From: Hymenobacter psoromatis | GTDB lineage: Bacteria > Bacteroidota > Bacteroidia > Cytophagales > Hymenobacteraceae | Reading direction: 5' to 3' | NCBI RefSeq assembly: GCF_020012125.1 | Contig: NZ_JAIFAG010000001.1 | Coordinates: forward strand, 2,108,001 to 2,172,000 | DNA: 64,000 bases | In this document: positions 3,671 to 16,723 of the stretch, piece after piece | Position numbering within the stretch: the stretch's first letter is position 1 | How the letters are laid out: every line of letters starts with the position of its first letter | Program-made: the position numbers and the translations under genes | Notes under the pieces: generated by a model | Databases searched by the model: none | The model's input: the letters and a program-made list of their open reading frames with translations, nothing else | What the model was told of the DNA's origin: nothing

Positions 3671-3809
3671 AAAATTTTGACTCAGTGAAAAAGGTGCGGG
3701 CCAGCAATAGGCAGGCCTGACGCGCGCAGCTACCTGCCTTTCCGACATGAAAACGAGCAATCCTGAATTTCGTTTTGACTACTGCTGGCGGGCGGCTACC
3801 TGCCATGAG

Positions 3810-3873
3810 CACTGGGCTCACAAAAAAAGGGGGTAGGCACTAGCGTCTACCCCCTTTTTTTGTGAGCCCAGTG
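3810..3873. terminator. Perfect 27-bp inverted repeat, terminator-like
   Basis: Arms 3810-3836 and 3847-3873 are perfectly complementary around a 10-base loop. Each arm contains an A7/T7 tract and a GGGGGTAG/CTACCCCC block. It starts three bases after the GAF-protein stop on the minus strand, so it probably ends that transcript. Stem length and perfection exceed what a terminator needs. Confidence 0.8.
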
Positions 3874-3875
3874 TC

Positions 3876-4574
3876 TTACTCCAGACGCCTGTCCAACACC
3901 CGCGCCACGCTTTCGAGGCAGCGGCTCACGGGCTGCCACACCTCTGGGTCGCTCAGGTCGAGGCCCTGGCTGCGGCTGGCCAGGTAGCGGGCCAGGGTCG
4001 AGCTTTCGTCCAGCGCCTGGGCCAGCTCGTGCTGCGCATCTTCCCACTCGGCCGGCTGGCTTGTCACCAGGTAGTGGTAGCGCAGCTCAATGGTGCGGCT
4101 TACGAGGCGGGCGAGGCGGGTGAGCAGGCCCGCTTCGGTAGCGGTGAAGCCCCGCACCTCCTTGTCGATAACGGCCAGCATACCCAGGCGGGCGTGGTCG
4201 GTGGCTACTAAGGCAGCACCGGCGTAAAAATTAAGGCCTACCGCCTGCGCCACGTCGGGCTTGATGAGGCTGCAGCTTTCGGGCTTGTAGTCCGATACCA
4301 CTACTTCATCGCTCACCAGGATGGCGGCCGAGCACATACTTTCGCCGCGCGCCAGGCCCGGCGCGCTACCCCCCGCCATTGCCTTGAACCAGACGTATTC
4401 CGAATCGACGAGCGAAATAAGGGCGATGGGCACGCCGAAGAGCCGCGCGGCCCAAGCCACGTAGTCGTCAAACACCAGCTCGGGTGTAGTATTCACAATC
4501 TGGTACCGATGCAGCGTTCGCAGCCGGGCGGCATCGTCGGCGGGTATTAGCCTAGCAGGAAAAATAGTAGCCAT
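3876..4574 (-). CDS. GAF domain protein
   Basis: A 232-residue cytoplasmic protein with one GAF domain at about 20-170 (FDDYVAWAARLFGVPIALIS, then VWFKAMAGG, ending around LVSRTIELRYH) and a short helical C-terminus. Family knowledge: GAF domains bind small ligands or sense redox or light; the SVxxxxWFK pattern is the type found in stand-alone GAF proteins and phytochrome-like sensors. There is no output domain here, so it may act on a partner. It follows pirin by 17 bases in the same direction and is probably co-transcribed. The ligand is unknown. Confidence 0.8.
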   Translation of the reverse strand: MATIFPARLIPADDAARLRTLHRYQIVNTTPELVFDDYVAWAARLFGVPIALISLVDSEYVWFKAMAGGSAPGLARGESMCSAAILVSDEVVVSDYKPESCSLIKPDVAQAVGLNFYAGAALVATDHARLGMLAVIDKEVRGFTATEAGLLTRLARLVSRTIELRYHYLVTSQPAEWEDAQHELAQALDESSTLARYLASRSQGLDLSDPEVWQPVSRCLESVARVLDRRLE

Positions 4575-4591: not shown

Positions 4592-5314
4592 TCAGTAATT
4601 TGCCTCACTACCGGGCAAATCAATCAAAATAAGCTGAGAGTCACGGGCGGCCGTTATTTCGAGTACGTCTTCGGCATCAAGGCGGGCCTGGTCATTAGGG
4701 CCTAGCTCCGTACCATTGACCGTGATGCTTCCTTCTTTCACGTAGATAAAAGTAAGTCGTAATGGGAAAGTCTTGAAAACCAGGGTCTTTCCACTGTCCA
4801 GATTACTCCAATAGATGGTGCTGTTCGAGTTGAGGTACACCACGTCTTCGAGCACGCGCTGGCCGGTGGCCAGGGGCACCAGCTCGTTGTGATGGCCTTT
4901 CAGAAAGCCCAGGTCTTTCTGCTCGTAGCTGGGAGCCAGCCCCTTCTGGCTGGGCATAAACCAGAGCTGATAGAGATGCAGGGGCTGGTCCTGGCGGTTC
5001 ATCTCGCTGTGGGCCACGCCGGTACCGGCCGTCATGCGCTGCACCTCGCCGGTTCGGATGGTGGTGCGGTTGCCCAGCGTATCCTCGTGGCTTACCTCCC
5101 CTTCGAGCACGAGCGTAATAATCTCCATCTCGGAGTGCGGGTGCTGCGGAAAGCCATTCTGCGGCGCGATGGTGTCGTCGTTGAACACCCGTAGCGGCCC
5201 GAAATGCAGGTTGTGCCGGTCAAAATAATCGGCGAAGGAGAACAAAAAATAGGAGCTGAGCCAGGACGTAGGCGCGGCATGGTGGCGGTCGGCGGCGGAA
5301 ATGTAGGCGAGCAT
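4592..5314 (-). CDS. Pirin family protein (cupin, quercetinase-like)
   Basis: A 240-residue bicupin. The metal ligands of pirins are in place: His58 and His60 in FPQHPHSEME, His102 and Glu104 in GVAHSE. Length and C-terminal cupin fit the YhhW-like group, some members of which show quercetin 2,3-dioxygenase activity while others act as regulators. It starts a two-gene unit with the GAF protein. A TAnnTTTG promoter box on the minus strand at 5487-5494 could drive it with a long leader. Confidence 0.9.
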   Translation of the reverse strand: MLAYISAADRHHAAPTSWLSSYFLFSFADYFDRHNLHFGPLRVFNDDTIAPQNGFPQHPHSEMEIITLVLEGEVSHEDTLGNRTTIRTGEVQRMTAGTGVAHSEMNRQDQPLHLYQLWFMPSQKGLAPSYEQKDLGFLKGHHNELVPLATGQRVLEDVVYLNSNSTIYWSNLDSGKTLVFKTFPLRLTFIYVKEGSITVNGTELGPNDQARLDAEDVLEITAARDSQLILIDLPGSEANY

Positions 5315-5722
5315 AAGGCAGTGAAAGAATGGAAGTGAAGGTAAGCGGCAGCTACGCGCGCGGCGCGAGTCTGCCGCCTGTCTTAAAACTAGGAATAAGC
5401 AGGCTAGGTTGCCCTCGCCCGCCCTTGCTGGCGACTACCTGCCTCTGCCAAGGCGAGCTACTTACTTCAATTAATCCAACTGCTGGCAAAAGTACGCGAC
5501 GCAACTTACCGCAAACGTTTGCGGATTAAATAAATAATTAAAGCGAGTAAATGAGTCTTTTTTAGGGTTTTTTTGACTATTTACCTTGTTAGTATTTTGT
5601 CACAAGTCGTACTTAAAAGTAAGTTTATTTTATTATTATCTCAGAAAAAGCCTAAATTACGTTCGTTCGGAGAGGAGAAGATGGCCTAACATTGCGGCGT
5701 CTATTTCCCACCCCTCCAACTC
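5315..5722. other. 408-base non-coding region upstream of pirin and alpha-amylase
   Basis: No gene was recognised here. The right half (about 5525-5680) is strongly AT-rich with long T runs, and the region separates divergent genes, so it should hold both promoters. It contains the palindrome at 5509-5524 and a minus-strand -7 box (TACTTTTG) at 5487-5494. I could not place a confident -7 box for the amylase. Confidence 0.6.
5509..5524. promoter_or_regulatory. Perfect 16-bp palindrome, LacI/PurR-type operator candidate
   Basis: CCGCAAACGTTTGCGG is fully symmetric and has the central CG step with GCAAACGTTTGC halves used by LacI-family repressors such as PurR, CcpA and MalI-like proteins. It sits about 200 bases upstream of the alpha-amylase and about 195 bases upstream of the pirin start. 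No LacI-family gene is in the window, so the regulator would be encoded elsewhere. Confidence 0.6.
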
Positions 5723-7546
5723 ATGTCCTACCCCCTTCGCGGAACCGCACGCCTGGCTGGCGCGGCGGCCCTTTTGTGGCTCGCAGGCTGCGCCAAAAAC
5801 GCTACTGCCCCCGCTACCCCTACCCCGTCGCTGCTAAGTGCTAGCAGCAATGCCACCACCGCCAACGGCGTGCTGATGCAGGGCTTTTACTGGGACGTGC
5901 CCCAGACCACCAGCGGCCAGACGTGGTGGCAGGTACTGGGCGGCAAAGCCAGTGAGCTGAAAAGCGCCGGCATCACGGCCCTGTGGCTACCCCCCGCTTA
6001 CAAGGGCAGCGGCGCGAACGACGTGGGCTACGGCGTGTACGACCGCTACGACCTGGGCGAGTTCAACCAGAAGGGTACCGTGGCCACGCACTACGGCACG
6101 CTGGCACAGCTGCAAAGCTGCATTGGGGCGCTGCACGGCCAGGGCATTCAAGTGTATGAAGACATGGTAATGAACCACTTGACCTCAGCCGATGCGCAGG
6201 AGCAGTTCACGGTGGGCGGCACGAGCTACAACGTGTATACGAGCTTCACCTACCCCGGCCGGGCCAATAAATACAGCACCTACCAGTGGCATTATTACAA
6301 TTTTAACGGCACCCAGCAGGCACCTAATAACGGCTGGTACCAGTGGAATGCCTGGGATTTTCAGCCCTACGCCAATGGCGACGCCTACGATAATTTGCTG
6401 GGCTCGGAAATCCGCTACGCCGACCAGAACCAGGTGAACGAAACCATTAGCTGGGGCAACTGGATGACGACCACGCTGAACCTCGACGGCTACCGGCTCG
6501 ACGCGACTAAGCACATGCTTACCTCGTTTGTGAATTCGTGGCTGGATAACGTGAAGGGTAGCAGCGGCCGCTTCGCGGTGAGCGAGGCGTGGTTTCAGAA
6601 CCTGAGCGACCTCAACAACTACGCTTCTTCTACGGGCGGCCGCACGAGCCTATTTGACGTGCCGTTGCACTACACTTTTGCCGCCATGAGCAACGGCAAC
6701 GGTACCTGGGACATGCGCGGGCTGCAATTCGCGGGCTTCACGGAGGCCAACGGCGCGCTGTCGGTTTCCTTCGTCGATAACCACGATACCGACCAGACGG
6801 GCGGCGCGCTCTACTCACCGGTGGCCAATCTCAAGATGCTGGCCTACAGCTACATCCTGACCCGCGAGAAGGGCTACCCCTGCGTATTTTACAAAGACTA
6901 CTACAACTACGGCCTGGGCGCGCAGCTGAAGACACTCATCGGCATTCGGCAGGCGCACGGCTTCGGCTCGGGCTACGAGTACACCAGCGCCGACGACGCC
7001 GACGTGTATGCCTACTCGCGCGCTGGCGACGCCAGCCACACCGGCCTGCTGGAGCTGCTGAACGACGGGAGCAATGCCGCCAGCAAAGCCCTTGCTACCC
7101 CCTTCAAAAACGCCACCCTCACCGACCTCACTGGCAATACTACCGGCACCGTCACCACCGACGCCAACGGCAATGGCACCTTCTCCGTGAATGCCCGCTC
7201 CTACGCCGTGTGGGTACCCAGCGGCAGCGGCACGGGCGGCGGCGGCACTACCAGCACTACGGCGGTGAAATTCACCATCAACTACAGCAACACCGTGAGC
7301 GGCCAAAACCTGTACATAGTGGGCAGCACCGCCCAGCTCGGCTCCTGGAATACGGCCAACGCTATTCAGCTCAGCGGCGCGGCCTACCCCAACTGGACCG
7401 TAACCGTGCCCCTCACCAGCGGTACCAACGTGCTCTACAAGTACTTCCGTAAGGATGGCTCGGGTAATATCCTCTGGGAAAATGACCCCAATAACTCGCT
7501 CACGCCCAGCGGCAGCACGCAGAGCGTGACCGATACCTGGCACTAA
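5723..7546 (+). CDS. GH13 alpha-amylase lipoprotein with C-terminal CBM20
   Basis: A 607-residue lipoprotein: signal peptide with lipobox LAGC (Cys23). The GH13 barrel spans about 48-400, followed by a beta domain to about 500. Conserved regions are EDMVMNH (region I), GYRLDATKH (nucleophile Asp260), AVSEAW (acid/base Glu288) and FVDNHD (Asp355), matching the GH13_5/GH13_6-like calcium-dependent alpha-amylases. After a Gly/Ser/Thr linker (about 492-512) comes a starch-binding CBM20 with VGSTAQLGSWN and YKYFRKDGSGNILWE. It would be anchored on the cell surface or in the periplasm and cut alpha-1,4-glucans. No SusC/SusD pair is next to it. It converges with the GH31 gene. Confidence 0.93.
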   Translation: MSYPLRGTARLAGAAALLWLAGCAKNATAPATPTPSLLSASSNATTANGVLMQGFYWDVPQTTSGQTWWQVLGGKASELKSAGITALWLPPAYKGSGANDVGYGVYDRYDLGEFNQKGTVATHYGTLAQLQSCIGALHGQGIQVYEDMVMNHLTSADAQEQFTVGGTSYNVYTSFTYPGRANKYSTYQWHYYNFNGTQQAPNNGWYQWNAWDFQPYANGDAYDNLLGSEIRYADQNQVNETISWGNWMTTTLNLDGYRLDATKHMLTSFVNSWLDNVKGSSGRFAVSEAWFQNLSDLNNYASSTGGRTSLFDVPLHYTFAAMSNGNGTWDMRGLQFAGFTEANGALSVSFVDNHDTDQTGGALYSPVANLKMLAYSYILTREKGYPCVFYKDYYNYGLGAQLKTLIGIRQAHGFGSGYEYTSADDADVYAYSRAGDASHTGLLELLNDGSNAASKALATPFKNATLTDLTGNTTGTVTTDANGNGTFSVNARSYAVWVPSGSGTGGGGTTSTTAVKFTINYSNTVSGQNLYIVGSTAQLGSWNTANAIQLSGAAYPNWTVTVPLTSGTNVLYKYFRKDGSGNILWENDPNNSLTPSGSTQSVTDTWH

Positions 7547-7626: not shown

Positions 7627-10047
7627 CTACAAGCTGACCGCTAGGGCCTGGCCGGTGTAGGTCACGGTTTTTTCGACTTGGGCAGTAGCCTCGCCGCCGG
7701 TGCCGTGACCGGGCCGCACCACCACCACGCTAAAGGTGCGGCTGGCCGCCATGCCGGGGAAGCTGCCGCGCCGGGCGGTGATGCTGAACTGGCGCAGCTT
7801 GTCGTTCCAGCGCAGCTGGTAGGTGGCAAAGGCACCCTTTTCGTAATTATAGGTGTCGCCCTCGTCCTCGTACACCGTGAACTCACCGTCGGCACCGGGG
7901 TAGACGCGCAGCTCGGTGGGGCCGGTGGTGGGCTGGGTGGCGTACTCTACCTCGGGGCCGAGCGGCACGATGGAGCCGGCGCGCACGTAGAGGGGTAGGG
8001 TTTCGAGGGGCGCGGCGGCGGCAATGGTCTGGCCCCCGGCCAGCGACTGGCCGGTCCAGAAGTCGTACCACTTAGCGGCGGCCGGCAGGTACACCGGGCG
8101 GGTACCGGCCGTAGTGCGGGCCTTGGGACCGGAATACAGCTGCTCGGTAACGGGATTAACCAGGAAAGCCGGCCCGAACATATACTGGTCGGGGATGCCG
8201 TACACGTTTTTATCCTGCCGGAAATCAAACGCCAGCGACCGCATCAAGGTGTAGTTTTCGCGGGTGACGCGGGCGGCCAGCGAGTAGATGTAGGGCAACA
8301 GGCGGTAGCGCAGCTTATCATATTTGAGCAGCGTAGCCTTGGTGGCCGCGTCCCAATTGCTCGAAAACAGCGCCCGCTCGCCCTTGCCGTGGATGCGGAA
8401 AATTGGGCTGAACGCCCCAAACTGAAACCAGCGCGTGAACAGCTCGCGCGCCTGCGGGTCGGCCCAGTTCGGGATGCCCTCGGGGGCGGTGTTGGACTTG
8501 TAGCCGCCAATGTCGGAGGTCCAATACGGGATGCCCGACGCGCAGGCGTTGATGCCCTGCGGCACCTGGCTCTTGAAGGCTCGGAAAGTGGTCAGAATAT
8601 CCGACGACCAGAGCGTGGCGGCGTTGCGCTGCTGCCCCGCAAACGCCTGCCGCACCAGGAAAAACGCCCGCTTGTCGGGCACGTCCGCGCGCCAGCCCTT
8701 GTAGAGGCCCTTGGTGTGCTCTAGGGAGTAGGTATTGAAAAAATCGATGCCTTTGCCCACCGCGAAATCGGCCTTGCGGCGCTCGTCGAGCAGGGCTCCG
8801 TTATCGGGCTCGCACTGGTCTACCCACCAGGCATCCCAGCCGTACTTCTGGATGAGGCCGTCGCGGGCCTGCTGCCAGTACATGTCGCGGGCCTTGGGGC
8901 TGTGGGCATCGTAGTAAGTATCGAAGGTTTTGGTTACGAAATTATCCCAGGTGATGCTGGTCAGGTTACCGGCTTTTTGCAGGGCATCGAAGTTGGCCGT
9001 GCCCTTGCCAAACACCGGCCAGATGGAAATCATGGCGTGGATATTGGCCTGGTGCAGCGCGTCTACCATCGCCTTGGGGTCGGGGTAGCGGGTAGGGTTC
9101 ATCACGTGCGAGCCAATGGGCTGCGGCTCCCAGTAAAACCAGTCCTGCACGATGGCATCAACCGGAATGTGGTTTTGGCGATAGCCATCCTTCACCGAGA
9201 GTACCTCGGCCTGGGTTTTATAGCGGTCCTGCGACTGAAACAGTCCCAGCGACCACTTCGGAAACATGGGGGCCGCACCGGTCGCTACCCGGTACTGATT
9301 AATAATATGGTCGAAATCAGGCCCGTAGAAAAAGTAATAATCGACCTGCTTTCCGCTCTCCGACACGTACTTATACCGCGTATTCCCTTGCTCCGCGCCG
9401 TAGAAGTTCGACGCCGCATAGTTATCCCACAGCAAGCCGTAACCTTTGGTGGAAAGCAGCACCGGAATGGCCCCGGTCATATACTTGATGAGCATTTCCT
9501 GGTTGCGCCCCTTGTAGTTGATGGAGAGCGTGTCTTCGGGGTGGCAGCCCAGGCCGAAAAGACCCTCATCGGCCGGCGACTGGAAGCTGGTGGCGCAGTT
9601 GTAGGTAGCGATGCCGGCGATGGTGGCGGCCGTCATAGTTTTATTACCCTGCGCGGCCTCCGCCGCAATGGGCGCGCCGCGCAGGTCGAAATACGCCACC
9701 GCGTTAGTGGCTTTGTTGACCCGGATTTGCAGCCGAGCGGTAGTAATCGCGATTTGCCCGTTCTGGTCGGCTATTTTGAAGGGCGTTGTCGCCGACCACG
9801 GGTTGTTGACCACCAGCGAGGTTTTGGCCGGAAACGCGGGCAAAATGGTGTACTGCACCTGCACCACGTCGGGCCGGCACACCCGCACGCGCATTAGCCC
9901 CTTGTCGAGCTTAAACGTGACGTTATCCCCGGCCTGGGCGTAGGAGATAACGGTAGCCTGGGCGCTGGCAATCGAGGCGAGGCCGGCGGCCAGCAGCGTA
10001 GCCCGGCCAACCAGGCCGGGGCGAGGGAGCAGTATTTTTAAAAACAT
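7627..10047 (-). CDS. Glycoside hydrolase family 31 (alpha-glucosidase/alpha-xylosidase type)
   Basis: An 806-residue secreted enzyme with a signal peptide (cleavage near residue 29, ASAQA). The order is an N-terminal GH31 beta-sandwich, catalytic barrel (about 255-600) and C-terminal beta domains. The nucleophile motif is WWVDQCEPD (Asp410); the acid/base is probably Asp483 in LWSSD, followed by the YWTSDIGGY and FRIHGKGER blocks usual for this family. The WVDxCEPD variant of the common WxDMNE motif suggests a Bacteroidota subgroup; exact specificity (alpha-glucosidase, alpha-xylosidase or transglycosylase) cannot be fixed. With the neighbouring amylase it could take maltodextrins to glucose. 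Confidence 0.9.
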   Translation of the reverse strand: MFLKILLPRPGLVGRATLLAAGLASIASAQATVISYAQAGDNVTFKLDKGLMRVRVCRPDVVQVQYTILPAFPAKTSLVVNNPWSATTPFKIADQNGQIAITTARLQIRVNKATNAVAYFDLRGAPIAAEAAQGNKTMTAATIAGIATYNCATSFQSPADEGLFGLGCHPEDTLSINYKGRNQEMLIKYMTGAIPVLLSTKGYGLLWDNYAASNFYGAEQGNTRYKYVSESGKQVDYYFFYGPDFDHIINQYRVATGAAPMFPKWSLGLFQSQDRYKTQAEVLSVKDGYRQNHIPVDAIVQDWFYWEPQPIGSHVMNPTRYPDPKAMVDALHQANIHAMISIWPVFGKGTANFDALQKAGNLTSITWDNFVTKTFDTYYDAHSPKARDMYWQQARDGLIQKYGWDAWWVDQCEPDNGALLDERRKADFAVGKGIDFFNTYSLEHTKGLYKGWRADVPDKRAFFLVRQAFAGQQRNAATLWSSDILTTFRAFKSQVPQGINACASGIPYWTSDIGGYKSNTAPEGIPNWADPQARELFTRWFQFGAFSPIFRIHGKGERALFSSNWDAATKATLLKYDKLRYRLLPYIYSLAARVTRENYTLMRSLAFDFRQDKNVYGIPDQYMFGPAFLVNPVTEQLYSGPKARTTAGTRPVYLPAAAKWYDFWTGQSLAGGQTIAAAAPLETLPLYVRAGSIVPLGPEVEYATQPTTGPTELRVYPGADGEFTVYEDEGDTYNYEKGAFATYQLRWNDKLRQFSITARRGSFPGMAASRTFSVVVVRPGHGTGGEATAQVEKTVTYTGQALAVSL

Positions 10048-11939: not shown

Positions 11940-12731
11940 GAAGTGTTAACAGTAGGTAGTAGGTTCGGGAATGGAGTATCTGTTGACCGACGCGCAGTGG
12001 GCACGTATCGCGCTGCTGCTACCGGGCCGGGTTGGTACGGAAGGCGGGCGGGGCCAAGACAACCGGCGCTTTGTCGAGGCCGTGCTGTGGCTCATGCGTA
12101 ACGGCTGCCGCTGGCGGGCCTTGCCGGTCGCGTGGGGCAACTGGCATACCACATACACCCGCTTCCAGCGCTGGACCGCCGCGGGCATATGGGCCCAGGT
12201 GCTGGCGGCGGTGCAGCAACATGATGCCTTGCACACGCTGCTGCTCGATTCGACCACCATACGCGCCCACCAATACGCGAGCGGGGCGCGCAAAAAAACG
12301 GGCCGCAAGCCCTGGGGCGCAGCCACGGGGGACTGACCAGTAAATTGCACGTCGTGGCCGACACTCGCGGCCACTTCGTACGCGGCTGCCTGACGGCGGG
12401 CCAGCGCCCTGATGCTCCGCAGGCCTTGCCCCTGCTCGAAGGCTTGGCCCCGGCCTACCTCCTCGCCGACCGCGGCTACGATTCCGACCCGCTCGTGGCC
12501 ACCCTGGCGGCGCGCGGCACCTGCGCGGTGATTCCGCCCCGGCGCAAGCGCCGCACGCCCCGCGCCTACGACGCGGCCCGGTATGCCCAGCGCCACCTCG
12601 TGGAGCGGCTTTTTAGCCGCTTAAAGCAGTTTCGGCGCGTGGCCACCCGCCATGACAAGTCGGATACGCATTTTCTGGACTTTATTCAGCTAGCCGCGAC
12701 CGTACTCTGGCTACGTGACTGTTAACACTTC
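11940..12731 (+). mobile_element. IS5-family insertion sequence (IS427-like), 792 bp
   Basis: The ends are perfect 14-base inverted repeats, GAAGTGTTAACAGT at 11940-11953 and its complement at 12718-12731. They are flanked on both sides by CTAG (11936-11939 and 12732-12735), consistent with a short target duplication as reported for the IS427 group of IS5. The element contains one transposase split over two frames. It abuts the scoA remnant and lies 140 bases from a degraded amidohydrolase gene. Confidence 0.92.
11971..12725 (+). CDS. IS5-family transposase made by -1 frameshift (DDE)
   Basis: Two overlapping frames: 11971-12336 (HTH-type N-terminus and first catalytic residue) and 12345-12725 in the -1 frame. 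An A7 run at 12292-12298 reads AAA AAA A in frame 0. Slipping back one base there yields a continuous product of about 251 residues passing through GRSHGGLTSKLH, the conserved IS5 block that neither frame alone contains. Catalytic residues are Asp93 (LLLDSTTIRAH), Asp167 (LLADRGYDSD) and Glu212 (HLVERLFSRLKQFRRVATR, the YREK-like region). All key residues are intact, so the element may be active. Confidence 0.88.
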
Positions 12732-15638: not shown

Positions 15639-16723
15639 AGTACCCGTGGTTAATTAGTTTATGTTAAATTTTGAGAAATTTATTCTCCATAAATTTCCTA
15701 CTTGCGCTAAGCAACGATTAACTGCGTAGAAAAGAGTATCCTTATTAAAGTAGTCACCTGGGTCAAGCTGTTCTTTCTTCAATTTACGCCAAAGTGTTTC
15801 CGCAATATTGAGGTGTGGCGAATAAGTAGGTAAATAAAATACACGTAATCCGCGTGCTTCCCAAAAAGGTAATTGCTGCTGGATTAGCTGCGCTTTGTGG
15901 ATACTTGCATTATCTACCACAATTACTGTTGGCTTTCGAATCTTAAAAGATAATTCTTCTAGTTGTGTAAAGATAAAATTTGCGCTAATAGTCGTTTCCG
16001 TTGTTAACCAATGGGTTTGATTGCGTCGGCTAATAAGTCCCCAAATATTGATTTTATAGCCTTGCTCAACTGGTATGAAAACTTCTTCTCCTAGAAACTG
16101 CCACCCGTAGGGCACGTAGCCCGTACTGCACACATGGCTTTCATCTCCGTAAAATAAGTCTAGAAAACCTTGCTCGCAAAGTATCTCTAATTCAGTTAAT
16201 TGCGCCTTCTTTAAGGCATATAAATCCGGGCAGGGCTTGCCTTTACAGCGCCTTCTTATTCGCTTATATCGTCCGTCAAGACTTTTAAAAAAGATTTAAA
16301 GGTGCTCAAGCTAACCGATTTGTTAGTTTCCTGTTCCCATTCCGCTTTAGCCGTTTCAATACGTTGTCTATTCGCTTTGATAGCTTGCAAAACAGACTCT
16401 TTATCCTCCACTACGCTTACTACTGCTTTGCGCCCGCGTCCAGTCTTTGTTTGTAGTCCCTCAATACCCTCCTCTTGATAGCGTTTTGTCCACCCATTAA
16501 CACTTACATAAGTCATAGCCGTAAACTTGGCTACTTGTTCTGAGGTGAGCCCGATAGCTTTTAATAAAATCACTTCGCATCTAGCACGAAAACAGGGCGT
16601 CTTTCCCGTTCTAGCTCCTTGTTCTAAGGCTGACTTTTCAGATTTACTCAGTAAGGGGGGTATTAACTCTTGACATGATACAAAGCTAATCATTATAATA
16701 TAAACTAATTAGCAACAAGTACT
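15639..16723 (-). mobile_element. IS630-family insertion sequence, about 1.09 kb
   Basis: The ends form a 28-base imperfect inverted repeat (23 matches), beginning AGTAC and containing TAATTAGTTTAT. A TA dinucleotide flanks each side (15637-15638 and 16724-16725), the target duplication of the IS630/Tc1-mariner group. Base composition is visibly more AT-rich than the surroundings, pointing to recent arrival. It inserted four bases from a small hairpin (GGTAGGAG/CTCCTACC at 15611-15633). Confidence 0.92.
15654..16693 (-). CDS. IS630-family transposase made by -1 frameshift (DDE)
   Basis: Frame A (16256-16693) encodes the HTH part (LTSEQVAKFTAMTYVSVNGW, then a GRGRKA linker). The catalytic part is in the -1 frame down to 15654. 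At 16283-16289 the minus strand reads T TTA AAA in frame, a canonical -1 slippery heptamer. Slipping there joins the parts through FLKSLDGRYKRIRRRCKGKP, the block expected in IS630 proteins, giving about 346 residues. The catalytic triad is Asp184 (YGDESH), Asp261 (VIVVDNASIH) and Glu299 (HLNIAETLWRKLK). No lesions were seen. Confidence 0.88.

Follow-up and report, generated by a model that had tools for sequence, protein, structure and literature searches.

The LacI family includes several global regulators, a regulon counting as global when it spans at least 7 operons and exceeds 15 genes, and CcpA, FruR/Cra, PurR, PckR, GapR and GluR are named as such in the part of the source used here (PMC4052901). 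Cra/FruR of enterobacteria is displaced from its operators by sugar catabolites (PMC4052901, PMC3146397); it activates pckA and affects icdA (PMC3146397). PckR of Rhizobiales, known from comparative genomics, is a predicted activator of pckA and TCA-cycle genes, has its sites before these genes, and is mostly encoded away from its targets (PMC4052901). CcpA is a global carbon regulator of Firmicutes (PMC4052901), and in Bifidobacterium two LacI-type proteins, AraQ and MalR1, regulate central carbon flux (PMC6882875). The sugar network of gut Bacteroides is described with a global regulator of the Crp type, with SusR, which controls starch use, and with hybrid two-component systems; the LacI regulators tabulated in the part of that source used here concern uronate use (PMC3878776).

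We propose that a perfect palindrome upstream of an amylase gene in Hymenobacter psoromatis is the operator of a remote, orphan LacI-family protein, here called L025, and that it forms part of a small regulon of hydrolase and gluconeogenesis genes for which activation is the likeliest mechanism. Judged from sequence comparison, the probability of this reading is roughly two in three (0.68).

As for PckR, the L025 gene is unclustered with its presumed targets, and the sites linked to L025 stand before the genes for PEP carboxykinase (PEPCK) and NADP-isocitrate dehydrogenase (icd). Unlike L025, PckR belongs to Alphaproteobacteria, and the targets named for it in the part of the source used are central carbon genes, with no secreted amylases or xylanases (PMC4052901); the likeness is one of description. 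L025 scores 129.6 bits against the Cra model (cut-off 385) and 167.8 bits against the CcpA model (cut-off 442.35) and is placed in neither family; being far below both cut-offs, it may work like either regulator but is not filed as one. By analogy, its regulon would nevertheless resemble those of the Cra/PckR kind. AraQ and MalR1 are likewise comparable by description, but belong to Actinobacteria and to the phosphoketolase pathway (PMC6882875), whereas BT4338 of Bacteroides, a broad sugar regulator from the same phylum, is a member of the Crp family (PMC3878776). The word "Bacteroidetes" does not occur in the main text of PMC4052901, the part used of a review of hemicellulase regulation (PMC10766802) names no such regulator, and a literature search, beyond whose reach most subscription papers lay, returned no report of one in Bacteroidota.

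The predicted operator and its genes

The window, i.e., the whole stretch of 64,000 nucleotides that was analysed (G000:C1:2108001-2172000 of a 5.15-Mb genome), contains at 5509–5524 the sequence CCGCAAACGTTTGCGG, which reads the same on both strands. It is an exact 16-bp palindrome with a central CG, as the first-pass annotation had stated, and this even symmetry is that of LacI/GalR-family operators. The cre site of CcpA is also a palindrome with a central CG, and CcpA controls an amylase (amyE). The assignment as a predicted LacI-type operator is based on the palindrome together with upstream conservation, the conserved part being the 14-mer CGCAAACGTTTGCG at 5510–5523 with the core CAAACGTTTG.

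The operator lies in a 408-bp gap between two divergent genes, in a neighbourhood of which five genes were compared with Pfam. The presumed target (5723–7546, plus strand), whose start is 213 bp downstream of the first base of the 14-mer, encodes a GH13 alpha-amylase with an Alpha-amy_C_pro domain and a CBM20 starch-binding domain; its closest named relatives are from Hymenobacter, and a lipoprotein-like start, read by eye, suggests that it is of a secreted type. The pirin-like gene on the other side (4592–5314, minus strand) may be a second target. Of 75 amylase loci, the window counted, 10 have a pirin gene on the upstream side, and sites are present in the pirin-free loci L133, L134, L177 and L140 (whose contig positions match G008, G009, G020 and G073), which favours the amylase as the target. 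An RNA element was discarded as an explanation of this region since an Rfam search of window positions 5000–6000 gave no match.

Conservation and recurrence of the site

About one perfect 16-bp palindrome is expected in 64 kb (64000/4^8, by arithmetic), so the palindrome by itself is no evidence, and the argument has to come from conservation. We looked for the amylase in 120 genomes of the genus and obtained upstream DNA for 68 copies in 59 genomes, some second and third copies being left out. We refer to G000, G010, G028, G078, G080, G082, G083, G101, G104, G106 and G107 (n = 11) as the home clade, defined by the grouping together of their L025 proteins. A site with an unbroken CAAACGTTTG core is present in all ten home-clade genomes that have a close amylase (G080 has none), 213–228 bp before the start of the gene's match, and in tandem amylase arrays it precedes the outermost copy fetched.

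Two blocks stand out when the upstream regions of 12 amylases are aligned. The operator columns are 0.88 identical, and a stretch with TAACATTG reaches 0.91, against 0.55 for the median 14-bp stretch. TAACATTG (5687–5694, plus strand), which begins 163 nt after the 14-mer and has one mismatch to TAnnTTTG, the −7 consensus of Bacteroides promoters (PMC7366714), is the probable −7 promoter box of the amylase. Among 14 upstream regions displayed, 11 have site and box 163–167 nt apart. G048 keeps a similar promoter stretch before an amylase of 88% identity and has no site; its best match to L025 is no higher than 57% identity.

A search of the genome for further copies, as proposed in the first-pass annotation, gave a divided answer. 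The exact 14-mer occurs once in the whole genome, and matches with up to two mismatches are not enriched (26 sites vs 27 in the reversed control), a raw count that we set aside as uninformative; within the window, two matches with up to three mismatches compare with 0.78 expected. The relaxed forms do recur. YRCAAACGTTTGYR has 6 sites in this genome vs 1 in the control, and 65 vs 3 when ten clade genomes, among them this one, are taken together. Across the 120 genomes CGCAAACGTTTGYR gives 234 strand hits vs 12 in the control.

Recurrent targets and promoter spacing

Of the 65 YRCAAACGTTTGYR sites, 34 were extracted together with their flanks and inspected for nearby gene starts; the others were sites already known or belonged to AraR-like clusters. 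For most targets one representative was compared with Pfam, and other members were matched by eye on protein ends. Near-exact sites define six recurrent targets, i.e., the amylase, a second amylase, PEPCK, icd, a GH10 protein and a GH5 protein. The regulon is thus, on these sequences, apparently wider than the amylase and takes in central carbon genes.

The second target, also a secreted GH13 amylase, has an exact site in 8 of 10 genomes and a site with one mismatch in this genome. The PEPCK gene is preceded by a site in this genome and in G028, G083, G104 and G106, and by one with a single core mismatch in G010 and G082; no site is found upstream of PEPCK in G078, G080 and G101 of the home clade. 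The icd site is among the YRCAAACGTTTGYR sites in eight genomes and present in ten if one core mismatch is allowed. Unlike these ten relatives, this genome has no operator upstream of icd (G000:C1:307490-308716); in its stead a hairpin-like stretch is seen by eye (in L404). Sites also precede a secreted GH10 protein in five genomes and a secreted GH5 protein in four. The five GH10 sites are mixed, with one A half and one G half. Singleton targets include two SusC-like receptors, GH42, GH16, a deacetylase and an SSF transporter, together with a sigma-factor-like and an arabinanase-like gene recognised by eye; the site in L365 has no gene start nearby.

The distance from site to −7-like box is nearly the same for all sites of a target, or for most of them in the amylase (above), the values elsewhere being 22–24 nt for PEPCK (all 7 that have a site), 36 nt for icd (10/10), 54 nt for the second amylase (8/8, this genome agreeing when counted by eye) and 56–58 nt for GH10 (5/5). 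No promoter-like box was recognised upstream of GH5, where the sites are close to the start codon. We considered and dropped the idea that site and promoter are in helical phase; the differences in spacing between targets are not whole turns (by arithmetic), and so no phasing argument is made.

The LacI-family genes of the genome

Five LacI-family genes were found in the genome, none of them in the window. A tblastn search that used two LacI proteins as queries (E ≤ 1e-15) likewise finds no such gene there, nor in the 74 amylase loci, whose flanks reach up to 10 kb and are shorter in several. The earlier remark that the amylase has no local regulator is borne out as far as LacI-family genes are concerned, and the scan for such genes that it called for supplies five candidates: an XylR-like protein beside xylose-type genes, an AraR-like protein (L023, on contig 2), a LacI of a uronate-type cluster, L022 beside arabinan-type genes, and the orphan L025, which adjoins an AsmA-like gene. 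The assignments of the xylose-, uronate- and arabinan-type genes are largely read from sequence.

Near-identical sites stand beside LacI genes of the same genome, namely L022 (one mismatch) and the AraR-like gene (two mismatches, symmetric). The XylR-like gene has two overlapping copies, each with two mismatches, and the region of the uronate-cluster LacI has no near site. Since the latter lacks a near site and the site of the XylR-like protein is different, being a double and longer palindrome, both were rejected, which leaves three candidates. As a separate observation, the two core copies of the XylR-like region (L021:9677-9702) overlap in one long palindrome, CGGCAACGTTTGCGCAAACGTTGCCG, that stands before a beta-xylosidase-like gene (by eye).

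Evidence for and against L025

L025 is encoded at C1:929215-930252, 1.18 Mb from the operator. In the tree, the 50 proteins of the L025 group, which come from 49 genomes, are supported as separate from the AraR-like and L022 groups (98/97); a further eight genomes were counted as L025-positive on identity alone (62% or more). The strongest association is with the amylase site, counted when it was 80–360 bp upstream and had no more than a single mismatch in its 10-bp core. It is present in 19 of 30 L025-positive vs 1 of 29 L025-negative genomes (Fisher 8e-7, ignoring shared ancestry), and the same rule applied to the reversed control gives 0 of 59. As for icd, examined in 52 of the 91 genomes with a match, the site is found in 10 of 29 L025-positive vs 1 of 23 negative genomes (p 0.014, ignoring shared ancestry; control 3/52). 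The PEPCK site, examined in 26 of the 112 genomes with a match and with the loci near contig ends in G099, G107, G108 and G115 left out, is found in 8/15 vs 2/11, an association with L025 that is not significant by itself (p 0.11, ignoring shared ancestry; control 0/26).

Mean CGCAAACGTTTGYR hits are 2.75 in the 57 L025-positive and 1.22 in the 63 L025-negative genomes, and the motif is absent from all 13 genomes without an L025 match at E ≤ 1e-110. Some hits are near AraR-like genes (e.g., G041:C29), so that the count is not specific to L025.

The pair of residues before T[IV]SRAL in the recognition helix is PS or AS in 49 of the 50 proteins of the L025 group. In 36 home-clade sites of the amylase, PEPCK, icd and the second amylase, the second half-site base is G in 63 of 72 half-sites (A in 7, C in 2), and we infer that the helix pair reads this base, although the mixed GH10 sites speak against it.

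Several observations count against L025. The amylase site is missing in 11 of the 30 L025-bearing genomes that have the gene, eight of which form one sub-clade of the L025 tree. Some L025-negative genomes nevertheless have sites, a weak one before the amylase in G038, one before PEPCK in both G041 and G097, and one before icd in G079, and many of them contain CGCAAACGTTTGYR hits. The absence of the site from PEPCK in three home-clade genomes and from icd in this genome also counts against L025, as does the PEPCK association, which by itself is not significant. Furthermore, 30 L025 loci inspected with 1.5-kb flanks show no site before the L025 gene itself and no recurrent sugar-gene neighbour, and hence give no direct link from protein to motif; by eye, none of the targets is present in them, i.e., the regulator is unclustered with its targets. 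The sole solved structure available for comparison at E ≤ 1e-40, 3ctp, provides no ligand clue. L025 relatives of 63–72% identity occur in one other genus of a 60-genome sample of the family.

Taken with site conservation, recurrence and likeness to sites beside LacI genes, the co-occurrence with an orphan LacI supports the suggestion in the first-pass annotation that a remote LacI-family protein controls the amylase. Two minor features of the L025 loci are a rhamnosidase-like gene (by eye) that follows L025 in G055, and an AT-rich inverted repeat upstream of L025 (L025:9100-9200, by eye), possibly a mobile repeat.

Proposed mechanism and sign of control

The binding of L025 to these sites, the sign of its control and the nature of its ligand are proposed here from the arrangement of sites and genes. 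When no sugar or sugar-phosphate ligand is bound, L025 would occupy sites upstream of the promoters and raise transcription of the hydrolase and central carbon genes. In the presence of an easy sugar, the ligand would release L025 and the genes would fall silent, as for Cra and pckA. The regulon would join two GH13 amylases, and in relatives also the GH10 and GH5 proteins, to gluconeogenesis through PEP carboxykinase, and in relatives it would also take in NADP-isocitrate dehydrogenase.

Activation is favoured over repression because in four of the six recurrent targets the site stands 36–167 nt before a −7-like box; the PEPCK and GH5 sites, which are closer in, could be repressive. An alternative, which we regard as less probable though far from remote, is that L025 is indeed the regulator but a repressor, either CcpA-like or released by an inducer. 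It overlaps with the activator reading and differs in sign only. Most LacI proteins repress, and the location of the GH5 sites near the start codon and of the PEPCK sites just 22–24 nt from the −7 box would suit a repressor, whereas at the icd, second amylase, GH10 and amylase promoters a block of the polymerase would be less direct.

Rival regulators

L022 (C1:1726195-1727301) was the first candidate, and control of the amylase and the other targets by this protein is unlikely, even though its gene is present in all 11 home-clade genomes and is preceded here by a site, CGCAAACGTTTGTG, that departs from the amylase 14-mer at one base. The orthologs comprise 90 proteins from 89 genomes, 88 of them in the tree. 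In their 61 clear own sites, 116 of 122 half-sites have A as the second base, and the recognition-helix pair is MT in 85 of the 90 proteins, not PS or AS. G078, G101, G104, G082 and G010 keep the amylase site but have no site within 450 bp before the L022 gene, whereas G018, G049 and G077 have the gene without an icd or PEPCK site. The association with the amylase site is also weak, 19/46 vs 1/13 (p 0.04, ignoring shared ancestry). L022 was demoted on these grounds, i.e., own sites, association, helix pair and half-site base.

The L022 own site (L022:9550-9563 and orthologous loci) varies across the genus. The commonest best sites within 450 bp (n = 90) are CACAATCGATTGTG (18), CACAATCGTTTGTG (12) and CATAAACGATTGTG (9), followed by CACAAACGTTTGTG (8) and CACAAACGATTGTG (5). 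With forms such as CACAATCGATTGTG, CACAAACGATTGTG and CACAAACGTTTGTG beside a helix pair that stays MT, this is a natural series of operator evolution. The genes beside L022 were considered as a pentose-phosphate operon, a view that was given up, the reading frames being a GH43-like arabinanase (read from sequence) and a transaldolase.

Control by the AraR-like LacI, or jointly by several LacI paralogs with overlapping specificity (crosstalk), is rather improbable as well. That the AraR-like protein uses nearly the same site as the targets does count against L025. Its sites, TGCAAACGTTTGCA, occur three times on contig 2, two of them flanking its gene, and match CGCAAACGTTTGCG except at the outer position of both halves. 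The helix pair, VS, AS or IS among 12 AraR-like proteins, resembles that of L025 in its VS/AS form, and where an AraR-like protein of at least 80% identity is present, the amylase site is found in 8/10 genomes vs 12/49 without (p 0.002, ignoring shared ancestry). However, G010, G080, G082, G083 and G101 have no AraR-like match at E ≤ 1e-140, and all keep sites, be it before the amylase, icd, PEPCK or the second amylase. A chance palindrome without function, to which the expectation of one per 64 kb and the flat two-mismatch count in this genome would lend themselves, is hardly credible and was dismissed on the conservation upstream of the amylase, being contradicted also by the recurrence of the site and its spacing to promoters.

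Implications and neighbouring observations

Returning to L025, it is tempting, at slightly worse than even odds, to regard it as the first LacI regulator of carbon flow of the Cra/PckR kind in Bacteroidota. It would then be an activator whose probable ancestor was a local regulator of the AraR-like type, and it would couple the secretion of enzymes that hydrolyse starch, xylan and glucan to gluconeogenesis and TCA entry, both in Hymenobacter and in one or more further genera of the family. If true, LacI-based coordination of secreted hydrolases with PEPCK and icd in these environmental relatives of gut Bacteroides would mean that the Cra/PckR solution arose independently once more. Since the candidates are limited to five proteins and the promoters to a handful, the proposal is directly testable.

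The amylase is followed in the window by a convergent GH31 gene (7627–10047). A tblastn search (E ≤ 1e-15) detects it at no other amylase locus of the 74 related ones, and it therefore looks local to this genome. On the far side of the pirin-like gene, positions 3800–3880 form a long near-perfect inverted repeat with A/T runs around GGGGGTAGGCACTAGCGTCTACCCCC, terminator-like by eye, and two groups of transposase-like reading frames, also recognised by eye, are located near the amylase region at 11971–12725 and 15654–16133.
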